This document shows positions 1 through 6,113 of a stretch of DNA of 6,113 bases, piece after piece (position 1 is the first letter of the stretch; the number at the start of each line of letters is the position of its first letter). A program made the translations under genes and the position numbers. The stretch lies in contig LJUI01000187.1 in NCBI GenBank assembly GCA_001303705.1, positions 1 through 6,113 on the forward strand. The letters are read 5' to 3'. The notes under the pieces are model-generated. The model worked only from the letters and a program-made list of their open reading frames with translations. It had not been told where the DNA came from and did not search any database. The stretch comes from a candidate division TA06 bacterium SM23_40 (GTDB lineage Bacteria > LJUI01 > SM1-40).

Positions 1-68
1 CGCTCCGCCCCTTCACGCCAGGCTGCACCACGAGCTCTGTCTTTCTCGTCGGGCATCGAATTGGCCAT
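1..68 (-). CDS. Possible start of a further downstream gene (partial, unrecognised)
   Basis: An ATG at 68, 28 bases after the hdrB stop, opens a frame that stays open to the left window edge (22 codons, MANSMPDEKDRARGAAWREG...). AGAGGA lies about ten bases upstream as a possible ribosome binding site, and a second in-frame ATG is at 56. The visible residues are hydrophilic and match no family I recognise; they do not resemble the usual start of HdrA. An open frame this short can occur by chance, so this is only a candidate. Confidence 0.3.
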   Translation of the reverse strand, partial: MANSMPDEKDRARGAAWREGAE

Positions 69-96: not shown

Positions 97-794
97 CTAG
101 CTTGGGCTGCCCGCGGAGGCAGTTTCCTCTCTCCGCACACAGTCCAACACGGGAGTCGCAGGCACCAGTTCCGTCCCAATTTTCAGCCGTTTGGGATCAA
201 TCCCGAACGCCAGTCCCATCAACTGTGTGAAATACAGGATCGGCACGGCGAACTTCTTCCGAAACTCCCGGCTCACCTGGTTCTGATAGCACTCGAGGTT
301 GATCTGACATAGTGGACATGCCGTGGCAATCACGTCAGCGCCGCCGTCGATTGCACTCTGCAGAAGCTCGCGTAACATGCCCAGAGCGGCTTTGCGATTC
401 GTGGCAACCAAAGACCCGCCGCAGCAGCGGAGCCGCGCCGGGTAGTTGATCGGATCGGCCCCAATCGCCGACAGAAGATCCTCGAAGAATCGAGGCCCCT
501 CCACGTCCTCTGCGTCTTCACCCTCTTTCCGCGGACGCATCATTTGACACCCGTAATAGGGAGCTACGCGCAGACCCTTCAAGGGAACCGACACCGCTTC
601 CTTGATCGCATCCAGACCCACATCATTGACGAACACTTCCATGAGGTGATAGACGCCGATGGAACCCGAGTAGTGCAGATCGTCTTCCTCGAGAGCGTAG
701 TTGATGGCTTGCGAGCCGTCTCCAGTGCGGAAACGTGGTAGCTCGTGGCCATCGTTTCTAGCGAGCAACCCGGGTAATACGCATACGTTTTCAT
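97..794 (-). pseudogene. hdrB: HdrB-like heterodisulfide reductase subunit, disrupted by internal deletion and frame change
   Basis: HdrB normally has about 290 residues with two CCG-type cysteine motifs (C-x30s-CC-x30s-CxxC) that hold the non-cubane [4Fe-4S] clusters of the disulfide-reducing site. The gene starts at ATG 794 (good GGAAGGGA site, ATGA overlap with hdrC) as MKTYAYYPGCSLETMA, a typical HdrB N-terminus with the first cysteine C10. At about 708-717 the HdrB reading moves to another frame, which starts abruptly at AINYALEEDD and runs to the TAG at 97. That part keeps the second motif: C at 547-549, CC at 421-426, CPLC at 307-318. The CC and CxxC of the first motif, about 55-60 residues, are missing. 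Read straight on from 794, the product would leave the HdrB frame and stop at 579. Either the gene is dead or truncated, or the assembly lost bases here. Internal starts such as TTG or CTG could still give a C-terminal half. Confidence 0.82.
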
Positions 795-1354
795 GCGATC
801 CCTTCCACCGGCATGATCCTGTTTACCATTCGACGGAAGCTCTTGATCCTCTTGATCTTCGGCGGTATGAGCACCATCCTGCCCTTGCGCAGGAGCTTGA
901 GCCCCATGCTCATCTCGCGGAACAGACCCAGGAATCCGTTGCGGAAAATGAACGCCGTCGCATATCCAGGCTCGTAGGACTTCCCGGTACGAATGATTGT
1001 CCTGACAAAGCGCCGCGAGAATTCCGGTCCGATCATCCCTCTCTTGTACTGCCTCTTCCAGATCGAGTAGCGCTTTAGAGCATACATCAAGTCCGCAGGA
1101 CGAATGCCTTTCGGACAACGCTCGGAACACGCATAACACGACGCGCAGGTCCAGAACGCGTTGCTCGCAAGCACCTCGTCCCTGAGATCAGCGTTGATCA
1201 TGGCGATCAGCTGACGAGGCGTGCAGTCCATGTAGTCAACGGCCGGACAGGCCGAAGAGCAGGTTGCACACTGGACACAGCAATTGAGCGGTTTGCCCTC
1301 TGCAGAGTACAGGAGGTTGGAGACCTCCTGGCTAAACGAAGGTTTCGTATGCAT
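791..1354 (-). CDS. hdrC: HdrC-like heterodisulfide reductase iron-sulfur subunit
   Basis: A 187-residue soluble protein with two ferredoxin-type [4Fe-4S] motifs: CVQCATCSSACP (C26, C29, C32, C36) and CASCYACSERCP (C70, C73, C76, C80), followed by a basic helical C-terminal region. Spacing, length and the PxQLIAMI segment between the motifs match HdrC. In the family HdrC carries electrons from HdrA to the catalytic HdrB in the cytoplasm; in bacteria without coenzymes M and B the final disulfide or other acceptor is usually unknown. The start ATG has a good AGGAG site. The stop overlaps the hdrB start by ATGA (791-794), the usual tight hdrC-hdrB arrangement. The gene itself looks intact. Its partner hdrB is damaged, so whether a working HdrBC pair is made is doubtful if the sequence is correct. 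Confidence 0.92.
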   Translation of the reverse strand: MHTKPSFSQEVSNLLYSAEGKPLNCCVQCATCSSACPAVDYMDCTPRQLIAMINADLRDEVLASNAFWTCASCYACSERCPKGIRPADLMYALKRYSIWKRQYKRGMIGPEFSRRFVRTIIRTGKSYEPGYATAFIFRNGFLGLFREMSMGLKLLRKGRMVLIPPKIKRIKSFRRMVNRIMPVEGIA

Positions 1355-1365
1355 GCGGTCTCCTA
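1355..1365 (-). promoter_or_regulatory. hdrC ribosome binding site overlapping the receiver stop codon
   Basis: The minus-strand sequence TAGGAGACCGC directly precedes the ATG at 1354. TAG is the stop of the receiver gene and its last two bases begin AGGAG, the Shine-Dalgarno sequence of hdrC, five bases from the start. This ties hdrC translation to ribosomes finishing the receiver gene and argues that the signalling genes and hdrC share a transcript. Confidence 0.65.
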
Positions 1366-1788
1366 ACGGCTAGCCTTTCCCTTCCGCGTTGCCGCAGCAT
1401 CCAGTAAGGATCGCACCCTCTCGAGAAGATGTTCCGGCTCGACCGGTTTCTCGACGAACTCATCCACCGGCACATACCCGGGATGCACGCCCTTGCCCGG
1501 AAAGAGAAACGCGATCTGTTCCCGAATGCCGGTGATGATCAACACCGGCAGCTCCTTGAGCTCCGGATCCTTGCGGATCTTGCGGGCCATCATGATGCCT
1601 TCGGCACCTCGGCCCATCATGATGTCGAGCAGCAGTAGGTCGTAAGCTCGGCGCTTCAAGGCCTGAAAGCCGTCCTTGGGGTTGTACGCTACGTCAGTTT
1701 CGTAGTCGGCGCCTTCAAGAATGGCCCTGATACCCTCGACAAAATCGGGGTCATCGTCGACAATCAACAGTCTCTTTCGTTCGCTCAT
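1363..1788 (-). CDS. Stand-alone response regulator receiver protein
   Basis: A 141-residue protein consisting of a receiver domain only. D11/D12/D13 form the acidic pocket, D55 (LLLDIMM) is the phosphoacceptor, T86 (LIITG) the switch threonine and K114 (FVEKPVEP) the conserved lysine. Between T86 and K114 there are 27 residues, including FPGKGVHPGYVPVDEF, somewhat longer than in CheY-like proteins; I recall similar HP-x-PVDEF-EKP receivers beside metabolic operons of anaerobic bacteria. The tail after about residue 125 is short and basic, with no DNA-binding or enzymatic output domain, so it may act by protein contact or as a phosphorelay intermediate. The likely donors are the two kinases encoded just upstream. 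The ATG has a strong GGGAGGTG ribosome binding site lying inside an inverted repeat. The TAG stop is eight bases before hdrC and forms part of the hdrC Shine-Dalgarno sequence. Confidence 0.92.
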   Translation of the reverse strand: MSERKRLLIVDDDPDFVEGIRAILEGADYETDVAYNPKDGFQALKRRAYDLLLLDIMMGRGAEGIMMARKIRKDPELKELPVLIITGIREQIAFLFPGKGVHPGYVPVDEFVEKPVEPEHLLERVRSLLDAAATRKGKASR

Positions 1789-1808
1789 CCCCCACCTCCC
1801 TTGGGAGG
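1789..1808 (-). promoter_or_regulatory. Strong ribosome binding site inside an inverted repeat, before the receiver gene
   Basis: On the minus strand the bases before the ATG at 1788 read CCTCCCAAGGGAGGTGGGGG. GGAGG, six bases from the ATG, is a near-ideal Shine-Dalgarno sequence. The arms CCTCCC (1803-1808) and GGGAGG (1795-1800) are complementary; a realistic fold is five G/C-rich pairs closing a four-base CAAG loop, which would hide the Shine-Dalgarno. This could lower or gate translation of the receiver. The repeat is seen directly; the regulatory role is inferred. Confidence 0.4.
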
Positions 1809-1850
1809 ACGATCCAGCAGGCCCTGTCCACCGAAAGCTACTTGCACAAC

Positions 1851-2948
1851 TTAGCCCTCGATGGCAGGCAGAGTGATCACAAACGTGCTTCCTTCACCAA
1901 GCTTGCTCTGCACCGAGATCGAACCGTCATGAGCCTCGATGATGCGCCGGCTGATGGCCAATCCCACCCCCAGACCGCTTTCAGCACCCTCAGCCGACTT
2001 GGCTCTGTACAGACCATTGAAGATGAACGGCAGGTCTTCCTCCGATATGCCCACGCCCGTGTCCGACACTGATATCACTACCTGGTTGTCCTTGCGTTCC
2101 CACGCAATAGACACCTTGCTCTCCGTGGGCGAGTACTTGACCGCGTTGCCAAGAACATTCACCAGCGCTTCCGTGAGAGCCCCCTCGTCGCCCATCACCT
2201 GCCCCGCAGACTCCTCGACGGATGTGACGATCTCGATGTCTTTCCTGACCGCTTGCGGTAGGACGCTCTCGACTGCCTTCTCGATCGCCGAACTGACCGC
2301 AAGAGGCTGGTAGTTCTCCTTCATTGCTTCGATATCGACGGACATCCCGCGCAGCCACCGGTCAACCAGCTGCAGCAGATCCTTGATGCGGGTCTTCATT
2401 CGGTCCAGTCGCCGCTTCTGATCCTCGCTTGCCGTGCCTGCCAACTCCTGCTCCAGGACGAACATGTTCTGCTGTACCGCGCTCAGAGGACCCTTGAGCT
2501 CATGCGACACGATGGCGGCGAAGTTCTCCCTCAGCAGCTCTCTCTCCCTTCGCAGCGCCATAGTTTCCAGAACCAGTGTTCTCTTCTCCAGGCCCCTTCG
2601 AGTAATCAGGCGGAACTCGTCCGGCGTAAACGGTTTGGGAAGAAAGTCGTAGGCACCTTTCTTCATGGCCTCGACGGCGGAACTCACGGTCGCATAGCCG
2701 GTGATGACGATCGTGACAACGGTGGAATCATGCTCACGGATCTTCTCCAAGACTTCGAACCCGGAGATCCCGGGCATTTTCAGGTCCACAAACACCAGAT
2801 CCGGGCGGAATTCTTGCACCAGCTTCAACCCCCGACCCCCGTCTGTCGCCGTGGTGATCTCGTAGTCGGACCCTTGCAGAATCTCGGTGCACGAATCCAG
2901 AACGACTTCCTCGTCGTCGATAATCAAGATCTTCTGCCCGTTCTCCAC
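1851..2948 (-). CDS. Soluble hybrid receiver-histidine kinase (REC-HisKA-HATPase)
   Basis: A 365-residue cytoplasmic protein with no membrane segment. The N-terminal receiver (about 5-120) has the acidic pair D11/D12, phosphoacceptor D55 (VDLKMPG), T83 (VITGYAT) and K105 (LPKPF). A helical linker (about 120-140) leads to HisKA with H149 in SHELKGPL and a complete second helix (RMKTRIKDLLQLVDRWLRG). The ATPase domain has N268 (LGNAVKYSP), D296 (DTGVGI) and GLGVGLAIS (G325-G329). This order, receiver before kinase, suggests the receiver is phosphorylated by another kinase, perhaps the membrane kinase just upstream, and in turn modulates this kinase. The start is GTG at 2948, five bases after the TAG of that gene; AGGA just upstream can serve as ribosome binding site, with short spacing. 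No better start lies ahead of the receiver fold. It ends with TAA, 62 bases before the next receiver gene. Confidence 0.92.
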   Translation of the reverse strand: MENGQKILIIDDEEVVLDSCTEILQGSDYEITTATDGGRGLKLVQEFRPDLVFVDLKMPGISGFEVLEKIREHDSTVVTIVITGYATVSSAVEAMKKGAYDFLPKPFTPDEFRLITRRGLEKRTLVLETMALRRERELLRENFAAIVSHELKGPLSAVQQNMFVLEQELAGTASEDQKRRLDRMKTRIKDLLQLVDRWLRGMSVDIEAMKENYQPLAVSSAIEKAVESVLPQAVRKDIEIVTSVEESAGQVMGDEGALTEALVNVLGNAVKYSPTESKVSIAWERKDNQVVISVSDTGVGISEEDLPFIFNGLYRAKSAEGAESGLGVGLAISRRIIEAHDGSISVQSKLGEGSTFVITLPAIEG

Positions 2949-2953
2949 TTGTC

Positions 2954-4831
2954 CTACGATCCTTCCTCGGCTTCCTCATCCACTGCCACGGGAAGCCGAA
3001 TAGTGAAAGTCGTTCCGTGGCCTACCTGGCTCTCCACCGAGACGCTTCCCTTGTGCTCTCTGATGATCCCGTAACTGATCGCCAGACCCAGTCCCGTCCC
3101 GTGCCCGACTGCCTTGGTGGTGAAGAACGGATCGAAGATCCTCTCCACGTTCTCTTCACTGATCCCATGACCGGTATCTGTGAACTCCACCTCGATGACC
3201 TGTTCTGTCGAATCGAATCGACTCGCCACTATCAGCCGCCCACTGCCGTCCATTGCCTCGGCGGCATTGATGATCATGTTCATGAAGACCTGCTGCATTT
3301 GTGAAGGGTCGACCACGACCAGCGGCAGGTTCCCGTTCCAACTCTTCACGATCTCGATGTTGTGAAACAGCGCCTGGTTCTCGACCAGTGACACACATTC
3401 CTCCAACACCGAATTGACATCAGAGAGCTTCTTCTGCGGCTTGCGCGGCCGCTTCTCGATCGACCCGGTCATCGACTCATCGCAACTCCTCCTCTCCAAG
3501 AGCAGATGAGAATACGTGACGATTCCCTGTAGCGGATTGTTCAGCTCATGCGCCACATCCGCGGCGAGCTGCCCGATGACCGCTAATCGCTCCGACTCCA
3601 TGATCCTCTTCTTCGTGTACTCCGCGAGCTTCTCATCCCGTGCCTTCAACGCAGAGGCCATGATATTGAAGGCCTCTGCAAGCTCGGCCAGCTCGTCGTC
3701 CGATTGCACCTCGACCTTCGCGTCGAGATTGCCGTGCGCCACTTGCCAGGATGCCGACACGAGTTGCCTGATCGGGCCCAACAGTCTCTTCGAGAACAGG
3801 TAGGACAAAGCGATTGCCAGAAGAGCGCCGGCGAGGGCGATGCCCAAGAAGAGAAGTACGGTCCGCCTTTTCAGTGCCAGGTATGGTTCCTCCAGGATCC
3901 CCACATAGAGGATGCCGATGATTCGGCCGTGTATGTCCCGGATCGGCTCGTAGGCGCTGATGTACCAGTTGTTCACCACATAGGCACGGCCAATCCACCG
4001 TTCGCCTTCCCGCACAACACCCTCGTATACCTCCTCGGCCACGCGGGTCCCGATCGCCCGCGTACCGTCTTCATTCAGAACATTCGTCGAGATCCTGACA
4101 TCATCGTTGAAGATGGTGGCCGTGCCGATATCTCGGCCCTCGTACTTCGCACCTTGAAAGACAGTCTCCTTGATCTTGTCAACGATCTCGTAGCGTCGGT
4201 TCAGCAGAAGCCCAGCGTAGAGAACGCCAATCACGTTGTCGTTGTAGTCGACGATCGGAGCGGCAGCCTTCAACATCATGCCCGTTGTCTGCTCCGTTTC
4301 CTCTCTGGGCCGCGCCCTGGGCGTCTCCACCAACTCGCAATAGGCTTGCTCGGCCACATGGGGGCAGTCTTTCTGCAGTGCCTCCGCAGACACGATGGTC
4401 GTTGCGGCGACCGGTTCCCTTCCCTCAAGCACGGCTCGGATAAGGTCATCATCTGCTTGGCTGTCGCCCGCTACAAGCGGATTGGTCGCGCGGAACAGCA
4501 CAACGCCTCTGCCGTCCGTTACCGCGACGACGTCCAGTCTCTCTCTCGCCCACAGATCGGTCAGCTCATCGGCAGCGCGCCCGATCTCTCCGCTCAGTAT
4601 GGCATCTCTCAGATAGAAACGGTGTGCCGTGAAGCGAATCACGTCCGATACGTGACTCAGGTAGTTCAGGTAGATCTCCCAAGCAGCGTTCAGATCCGTT
4701 GCGACTCTGCTCTGGGCCTCGGCCACGACGCGGTGCTCAATAATCCGAATCCCCACCACGCTGAAAATCATGCTGACGACCACGATGATCAGCAGGAAGC
4801 TCGACATCAGCCTGATGGCGATTCGTCTCAT
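2954..4831 (-). CDS. Membrane sensor histidine kinase (Cache-HAMP-HisKA-HATPase) with shortened HisKA
   Basis: A 625-residue membrane kinase. TM1 spans about residues 7-30, an extracytoplasmic double-Cache-like sensor about 32-320 ([37 protein letters not shown]), TM2 about 326-346, and HAMP about 347-397. The phosphoacceptor is H428 in [10 protein letters not shown]. The ATPase domain has an N box at N522 (INAAEAM), D552 in DTGHGI, the FDPFFTTK segment and GTGLGLAIS (G580, G582). The expected reaction is autophosphorylation of H428 and transfer to a receiver aspartate, probably of a neighbouring gene. Oddities: about 20 residues that normally follow SIEK (the second HisKA helix) are absent in frame, so EK460 runs straight into RPRKPQKK; and C156 and C165 lie in the sensor domain. 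The start is ATG with only a weak Shine-Dalgarno (AGGTAAGAG). It ends five bases before the next kinase gene. The ligand is unknown. Confidence 0.9.
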
Positions 4832-4896: not shown

Positions 4897-5871
4897 TCAT
4901 GTGGTCTCCAATTTCTTCCGTCGCAGCAGCGAGGCGGGCAGGCTGTAGCGATAGAAGGTACCCACCGGGTCAGGGATCCGCTCCACGATCCTCGCGATCT
5001 TCGCCTCGTCGTTGCTGTCAATCATCGAAGTGATGGCGGCGAGAAACTTGGCGCCTTGATCTTTCACCCGGCTGGTGGGGCCGAAGCAGCCAGTGCAAGG
5101 CATGTTCCCTTTGATACACAGAGCCTCGCAGCCGGCGCGCGTCGCCGGACCCATGCAGAGCAACCCTTGCGCCAGCAGGCACTTGTCCTCTTCGATCACG
5201 ACCTCGTGCGGACGCTTGAACTCCGTCAACGCGAGGGTCTCCGGCTTGGTGTCTTTGCGCGGGCATTCCTCGCACAGCGCGTAGTCGGGGGCCAGCACGG
5301 TTCCCTTCGGCGGTAGCTCCCCGCTCAGCAGCGTCTCCACCGCCTGCCAGATGATCTTCGGTGTCGGCGCGCAACCCGGTATGTAGTAGTCCGTGTCCAC
5401 CACCTGATCGAGGGTCCGGACGGTATTGAAGAAGCCGGGCAGGGTCACGCTGTAACCGTCCTCCTTATGCTCCGTCTCTGGGAAGACTCGATCCGGATTC
5501 TCGGTGCTGGGAGATTCCACATACACCGTCTCGAACACGCTGCGCCGGTCCCACAGATTGGCCAGGCCGGGGATCCCGCCCAGGTGCGAGCAGGAGCCGA
5601 ACGCGATGAGCAACTGCGACTTCCTGCGCAGTAGCTCAACCATCTCCTCCTGCTCAGTGGTACGGATCGCGCCATTCACAAAGGTCGCGAGGATCGACCC
5701 GTCCTCCATCGCCTCCACGTCCTTGCGCTTGAAGTCCAGTGCCACAGGCCAAAAGACGATGTCCACGGCTGCGACCACATCGAGGATCTTCTCCGCGAGA
5801 TCGACAACCGCCTCCTCACAGCCGCCGCAGGAGGCGCACCAATAGAACGCGACTTTCGGCTTGTCACTCAT
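4897..5871 (-). CDS. mvhG: MvhG-like hydrogenase small subunit (F420-non-reducing type)
   Basis: A 324-residue protein of the NiFe-hydrogenase small-subunit / NADH dehydrogenase 20-kDa superfamily. The N-terminal motif WCASCGGCEE (C12, C15, C18), GSCSHLGGIPG (C94) and PGCAPTP (C167) supply the usual proximal [4Fe-4S] ligands. The C-terminal half has a cysteine-rich region (C200, C203, C231, C239, C248, C252, C259, C262; QGLLCMGPATRAGC and CTGCFGP) that fits two more clusters, as in MvhG. No signal peptide or membrane segment is seen, so it should act in the cytoplasm, relaying electrons to MvhD/HdrA. Length fits the family. The ATG start overlaps the mvhD stop and is preceded by GGGGGTGAG. 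No large catalytic subunit follows; the next gene is a histidine kinase after 65 bases. It could therefore serve a hydrogenase with a distant large subunit or a different electron donor. Confidence 0.88.
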   Translation of the reverse strand: MSDKPKVAFYWCASCGGCEEAVVDLAEKILDVVAAVDIVFWPVALDFKRKDVEAMEDGSILATFVNGAIRTTEQEEMVELLRRKSQLLIAFGSCSHLGGIPGLANLWDRRSVFETVYVESPSTENPDRVFPETEHKEDGYSVTLPGFFNTVRTLDQVVDTDYYIPGCAPTPKIIWQAVETLLSGELPPKGTVLAPDYALCEECPRKDTKPETLALTEFKRPHEVVIEEDKCLLAQGLLCMGPATRAGCEALCIKGNMPCTGCFGPTSRVKDQGAKFLAAITSMIDSNDEAKIARIVERIPDPVGTFYRYSLPASLLRRKKLETT

Positions 5872-6113
5872 GCGACGCTCACCCCCTCGGCGAAGTCCTC
5901 AGACGGGACCGCGAGATTGAGTGGGCCCAAGGCCTTGAGCTTCTCCACCATGTCATCCACGGCCCACTTCAATCGCTCGGCTTCCGACGCAGAGATCCAC
6001 TCGAGACGGAAACGCTCCTCCTCGATGCCCATATCTTTCAGCATCCGCTTGAGCAGGTTGTAGCGCCGCAACGCCTTGTAGTTCCCCTCCTGATAGTGAC
6101 AGTCGCCGGGATG
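5868..6113 (-). CDS. mvhD: MvhD-type delta subunit (hydrogenase iron-sulfur subunit), C-terminal fragment
   Basis: This is the last 81 codons of a gene whose 5' part lies beyond the right window edge. The visible protein begins HPGDCHYQEGNYKA and continues with an RRYNLLK stretch and the LEWISASEAE motif, the characteristic C-terminal half of the MvhD/FrhD delta-subunit family (usually about 140 residues, or fused to HdrA). The family carries a [2Fe-2S] cluster and passes electrons from a hydrogenase or other input module to the flavoprotein HdrA in the cytoplasm. One probable cluster-ligand cysteine, in GDCHY, is visible; the others would be upstream. The stop TGA overlaps the ATG of the next gene (ATGA, 5868-5871), so translation is probably coupled. 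Whether this is a free MvhD or the tail of an HdrA-MvhD fusion cannot be told here. Confidence 0.9.
   Translation of the reverse strand, partial: HPGDCHYQEGNYKALRRYNLLKRMLKDMGIEEERFRLEWISASEAERLKWAVDDMVEKLKALGPLNLAVPSEDFAEGVSVA

Follow-up and report, generated by a model that had tools for sequence, protein, structure and literature searches.

Contig LJUI01000187.1 of candidate division TA06 bacterium SM23_40 (6,113 nucleotides, hereafter the window) makes up contig C27 in full; the metagenome-assembled genome to which it belongs measures 2.88 Mb. Between genes for a hydrogenase small subunit (mvhG) and for two subunits of a heterodisulfide reductase (Hdr; hdrC and hdrB) it carries the genes of three signalling proteins, a Cache-HAMP histidine kinase (CacheHK), a receiver–histidine kinase hybrid (RHK) and a lone receiver (REC). 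Here we report that this block is joined to hdrC–hdrB in a fixed order in all close relatives retrieved, and we think it somewhat probable that it serves, through two-component signalling, as the dedicated input of a hydrogenase-linked enzyme containing HdrB and HdrC, with the phosphorylated receiver (REC~P) docking on that enzyme. The signalling parts are of known kinds; their conserved attachment to an electron-transfer enzyme is unusual. We know of no Hdr–hydrogenase or HydABC-type enzyme under two-component phosphorylation, and in the open-access literature, subscription journals being outside coverage, neither the trio nor receivers gating Hdr or bifurcating enzymes were found described.

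Among the other genomes searched for relatives of the window organism the closest shares no more than the domain with it, and none yields a match to REC at 1e-30. The receiver-similarity search returned 80 loci, 29 of them close (REC 64-75% identical). All 29 have CacheHK–RHK–REC–hdrC–hdrB in this order on one strand, the contigs of L030 and L033 starting inside the block and lacking its kinase end, and the REC–hdrC gap has a median of 12 nt. Judging by record titles, the close loci cover no fewer than six phyla, namely Chloroflexota, Bacteroidota, Ignavibacteriota, Verrucomicrobiota, Armatimonadota and Actinomycetota. Most Chloroflexota loci have genes for electron-transfer flavoprotein (Etf) and an HdrD-like protein upstream and HdrA–MvhDGA downstream of the block; Etf lies downstream in L014, L015 and L032, while MvhDG is found upstream in the window and in L026, the latter with MvhA downstream. 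L010 and L031 show no recognisable Hdr, Mvh or Etf homologue outside the block, except for a weak fragment (38%) where the short L010 contig begins; the 0.6-1.9 kb upstream in these two loci, including the genes before CacheHK in L031, gave no assignable identity. Because the flanks vary and the block is fixed, the constant partner is HdrC/HdrB and not MvhG, which is the upstream neighbour in the window and L026 only. A preliminary description of this locus, made from its sequence, had set the survey of linkage between the trio and hdrC/mvhG as a test beforehand; since the linkage persists through rearrangement of the flanks, non-conservation is excluded, and the expected linkage holds on the hdrC–hdrB side but not on the mvhG side.

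The same association is seen from the side of the enzyme. Among 199 genomes surveyed, all from one class, those with an HdrC of at least 51% identity number five and are the same five that have REC, and the two genes are always adjacent, 33-158 nt apart. The chance of this coincidence is about 4e-10 if the sets are independent; the genomes share ancestry. No REC was detected within the flank of about 1.5 kb around the next 25 HdrC loci (45% identity or less).

In the window all genes lie on the minus strand in the order mvhD(fragment)–mvhG–CacheHK–RHK–REC–hdrC–hdrB; the spacings are 65 nt (mvhG–CacheHK), 5 nt (CacheHK–RHK), 62 nt (RHK–REC) and 8 nt (REC–hdrC). At the REC–hdrC junction (CGT TAG GAG ACCGC ATG) the stop codon TAG, 8 nt 5' of the hdrC ATG, forms the first half of TAGGAG, and the interval from mvhG to hdrC, when scanned, contained neither a terminator-like site nor a minus-strand promoter-like site. 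The arrangement put forward in the preliminary description is thereby borne out, including its coordinates and domain assignments: the kinase, the hybrid and the lone receiver lie between mvhG and hdrC on the same strand, the receiver stop falls inside the hdrC ribosome-binding site, and the block is co-linear with the electron-transfer genes.

The lone receiver is one of a larger family, whose more distant members (36-54% identical) are encoded in three operon settings: HdrA–MvhD–(kinase)–REC–MvhG, [FeFe] hydrogenase together with NuoE/NuoF, and NuoE/NuoF accompanied by several receivers; one NuoEF locus, L068, additionally encodes a [NiFe] large subunit. The clades in a tree of 81 receivers track the adjacent enzyme: HdrCB (100/98), HdrA-Mvh (91/91), NuoEF (99/98) and 10 of the 11 [FeFe] rows (100/96). 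One change each is needed on the tree for HdrCB, NuoEF and HdrA-Mvh, and two for [FeFe] because of the long-branched L053. Receivers of the family have such an enzyme within 1.5 kb in 39/39 cases in the Hdr clades and in 28/41 of the rest; for generic receivers of the same 29 genomes, taken as a control, this is so in 1/30. The window genome itself has two more signalling–enzyme clusters. C64 is ordered HdrA–MvhD–REC–MvhG, and C88 (L007 3016-12962) is ordered CacheHK–σ54 activator–double receiver–receiver–RHK–Fer4_22 protein–NAD/FAD protein–[NiFe] small–large subunits. A tentative extension, which we regard as doubtful, is that each lone-receiver clade could be a phosphorylation-dependent subunit gating electron flow in one electron-bifurcating or NAD-linked hydrogenase/Hdr complex.

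Several further features of these operons were observed. In the HdrA-Mvh type a small open frame of about 60 residues (..YFEGKKYFWDGEQYD..LLYTRRVV..) lies between MvhD and REC (L006 7739-8008; also L039, L041, L042 and L044). Upstream of HdrA in C64 (L006 1099-4012) are DRTGG, CBS/ATPase-like, PHP-like and HATPase-like genes, of which Pfam confirms the first DRTGG only. Four lone receivers surround the NuoE–NuoF operons of L055, L058, L061, L063, L064, L076, L077, L080, L082, L084 and L089. Two cyclic-nucleotide-binding proteins (by Pfam with a cNMP domain only) flank the Hdr–Mvh operon of some Chloroflexota (L018 6292-6789 and 17650-18144). One in-frame TGA each, possibly encoding selenocysteine, occurs in four HdrA-like matches of G000 (C176:7614-9563, C176:2551-3816, C86:5244-6503 and C67:7965-8408).

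REC has the features of a single-domain response regulator, namely an acidic pocket, a phospho-acceptor Asp, Thr and Lys, and no output domain. D11, D12, D13, D55 and K114 are invariant across 62 sequences, and T86 is present in the window sequence. The AlphaFold model of REC has a CheY-like fold with Z of about 20 to known receivers, the structures of DivK and CheY being among the matches; the Foldseek matches listed include no solved relative above about 31% identity. CheY, DivK, Spo0F and SdrG likewise consist of a receiver fold without an output domain, with the acidic pocket, D55, T86 and K114 intact in REC. REC differs from these in that its gene lies in enzyme operons and a conserved segment is predicted to take the place of helix α4. 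Five α/β units, α4 among them, are typical of single-domain response regulators, though not a strict necessity. The model lacks α4, residues 87-109 (REQxAFLFPGxxVHPxF..) stand in its place, and the predicted local distance difference test (pLDDT) falls below 50 at residues 95-100. Positions 87-113 are nearly invariant across 30 sequences and differ by enzyme type. The output face thus looks remodelled in the model, and its being conserved yet unfolded suggests that residues 87-113 are a putative binding site that orders on a partner. The candidate explanation that the loss of α4 is an artefact of a shallow alignment is weakened, because the receiver of RHK, modelled from 28 sequences and hence from a shallower alignment, does have α4. 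FAT GUY receivers have a family-specific motif around β4; the window REC reads IITGIREQ there.

In RHK, D11, D12, D55 and H149 as well as the kinase motifs are conserved. In 25 of the 27 loci for which both genes were measured, no more than about 30 nt separates CacheHK from RHK, and the two often overlap. The RHK receiver resembles NtrC-type receivers. Given the adjacent genes and this NtrC-like receiver, CacheHK likely phosphorylates the receiver of RHK. In the RHK model a single continuous helix (109-169) runs from the last helix of the receiver into the DHp domain, so the receiver may be an input to its own kinase. The preliminary description had proposed a phosphorelay from kinase to hybrid to lone receiver. 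A His-Asp-His-Asp relay calls for intact kinases and for an HPt domain or a DHp domain that takes phosphate from an Asp; no HPt domain model was reported in the trio at E 0.001, which leaves the term unproven. Judging from the model, a cascade in which the receiver of the hybrid governs the kinase of the same protein is no less likely. In such a cascade CacheHK would sense an extracytoplasmic signal and phosphorylate the RHK receiver, which would tune the RHK kinase through the helix joining both domains. RHK would in turn phosphorylate REC, its natural substrate, and REC~P would dock via segment 87-113 on its electron-transfer enzyme, with HdrC/HdrB as the likeliest site, altering the activity, assembly or partner coupling of the enzyme. 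Beyond gene order, the order of phosphotransfer, the binding of REC to the enzyme and any effect on activity are inferred.

By Pfam, CacheHK, RHK and REC have no output or helix-turn-helix (HTH) domain, and the DNA-binding output that the cognate regulator of a transcriptional two-component system possesses is absent within the trio. Direct control of the enzyme at the protein level is the best reading that we infer, and the output of REC would most simply be HdrC/HdrB or the complex containing them.

A number of points weigh against this. The contig C88 of the window genome has a REC–AAA–HTH_8 σ54 activator beside a paralogous CacheHK (50% identical) and a second hybrid, RHK2; in L014 a CacheHK–σ54 activator operon is divergent from the block. 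Among DNA-binding regulators the survey was confined to σ54 activators. Since the REC family also adjoins enzymes that lack HdrCB, one docking partner for all its members need not be expected, and operons passed on vertically could produce the match of clade and context with no physical contact involved. The window contig has a disrupted hdrB and lacks part of the CacheHK DHp domain. Other signalling proteins are the targets of many lone receivers; SdrG, for instance, hands phosphate via PhyT to PhyR (PMC5898713).

The alternative that survives best, which we regard as possible but unlikely, is transcriptional control in trans: CacheHK and RHK would feed a distant DNA-binding regulator such as the NtrC-type σ54 activator of C88, and REC would be a phosphate sink or relay intermediate. 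The paralogous kinase beside that activator and the divergent operon of L014 are consistent with it, as are a tblastn match of RHK to the receiver region of the C88 activator (54%) and, in L032, similarity hits plus a PF00158 match at the equivalent place, by which the arrangement of L014 is suggested there too. It also agrees with known redox operons. Rrf1 of Desulfovibrio vulgaris is a receiver protein. The rrf1/rrf2 regulatory genes belong to the hmc operon, whose electron-transfer complex has an HdrD/GlpC-like subunit, and are described as regulators of hmc expression (PMC10924467); this locus has neither the trio nor HdrCB. The adh–hdr operon DVU2405-2397 of the same organism is under two-component control via DVU2394 (Rajeev 2011, PMC3333781), a system resembling the block in being tied to heterodisulfide-reductase genes; DVU2394, however, is a DNA-binding regulator, and none of the trio has such an output. 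Of 24 trio genomes searched, nine (including L026 and L031) have no recognisable σ54 activator, only AAA matches at chance level being present (best E about 1e-8 or weaker), in a survey limited to this type and in assemblies that may be incomplete. The σ54 route is therefore not general, and a σ54 activator as universal output was rejected. Control in trans also leaves unexplained why REC always abuts hdrC and why its output face varies by enzyme. The preliminary description had held that the trio is without DNA-binding output and had named a cognate DNA-binding regulator nearby as the finding that would speak against it: the first holds for the three proteins themselves but not for the genome, and of the second there are candidates in trans in C88 and divergently in L014, but none recognised in those nine genomes.

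An action of REC on the life cycle of the enzyme (assembly, maturation, localisation or proteolysis) and not on catalysis is rather improbable. REC would then resemble the adaptor-type receivers CpdR and RssB. This would fit the invariant linkage and the remodelled protein-binding face, and maturation proteases accompany many of these operons; no specific evidence against it was found. Very improbable is the reverse flow, with HdrC/HdrB as a redox-sensing input to the kinases and the output elsewhere: the block does stand without a recognised hydrogenase or HdrA alongside in L010 and L031, but CacheHK already has an extracytoplasmic sensor, and other clades have a complete hydrogenase as partner. 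Least probable of all is that the signalling genes and hdrCB are merely co-inherited in one operon; transfer of a compact operon between phyla also preserves order, but such hitchhiking is disfavoured because the flanks have been reshuffled in at least three ways with the boundary intact, and related receivers occur in three other enzyme contexts.

Compared with NtrB/NtrC (AtoS/AtoC), to which CacheHK is related by its top NCBIfam model (AtoS, 212 bits, under the cut-off), the block has a histidine kinase in place of the AAA+/HTH output and an extra lone receiver. DVU0259, the DivK-like protein suggested by NCBIfam NF045717, was not found in PMC3333781, nor was divK in PMC4215793.

The features of the window are listed in Table 1. 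The top NCBIfam models of the enzyme genes are NF045875 VhuG for mvhG, TIGR03290 HdrC for hdrC and HdrB for hdrB, each with a score under the cut-off of the model.

Table 1. Features of the window, from mvhD to the partial gene at the opposite contig end
Feature	Position	Strand	Domains and remarks
mvhD (FlpD), C-terminal fragment	5868..6113	-	PF02662 6.5e-20; cut by contig end
mvhG-like hydrogenase small subunit, 324 aa	4897..5871	-	PF01058 (Oxidored_q6)
CacheHK, Cache-HAMP histidine kinase, 625 aa	2954..4831	-	sCache_3_3, HAMP, HisKA, HATPase_c
RHK, receiver–histidine kinase hybrid, 365 aa	1851..2948	-	Response_reg, HisKA, HATPase_c
REC, lone receiver, 141 aa	1363..1788	-	Response_reg (PF00072) only
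REC stop codon overlapping hdrC Shine-Dalgarno (TAGGAG...ATG)	1354..1369	-	
hdrC-like 4Fe-4S subunit, 187 aa	791..1354	-	PF13183 (4Fe-4S dicluster)
hdrB, disrupted	97..794	-	PF02754 (CCG); frame opens at ATG 794
Start of a further gene (MANSMPDEKDRARGAAWREGAE...)	1..68	-	probably mvhA, as the large subunit comes after hdrB in L026

Two genes of the window copy are damaged. A deletion near 708-712, seen by comparison with the relatives, costs hdrB about 68 codons, changes its frame and takes out the first CCG domain; the open frame downstream retains the second CCG domain only. No undamaged copy was found elsewhere in the assembly, where no other HdrB paralogue exceeds 36% identity to the L018 query. 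From DHp helix 2 of CacheHK 19 residues are missing through an in-frame loss of 57 nt at about 3449; they are present in 7/7 aligned relatives, and the His, N and G boxes of the window kinase are retained. Two deletions within 6 kb suggest that the window copy may be misassembled or decayed, and conclusions on the block were for this reason drawn mainly from the relatives.

Hdr–hydrogenase and HydABC-type enzymes set the ferredoxin/NADH/H2 balance in anaerobes. The conserved linkage of the trio to Hdr genes without a DNA-binding part indicates that cells may switch a hydrogen-linked enzyme by direct signalling and not only by expression. The receiver family, tracking its enzymes with an apparently remodelled output face, offers concrete docking partners to test and would bring flavin-based electron bifurcation under fast post-translational control. 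Should the doubtful extension to receivers as gating subunits be true, a membrane sensor would control energy metabolism within seconds and without transcription.

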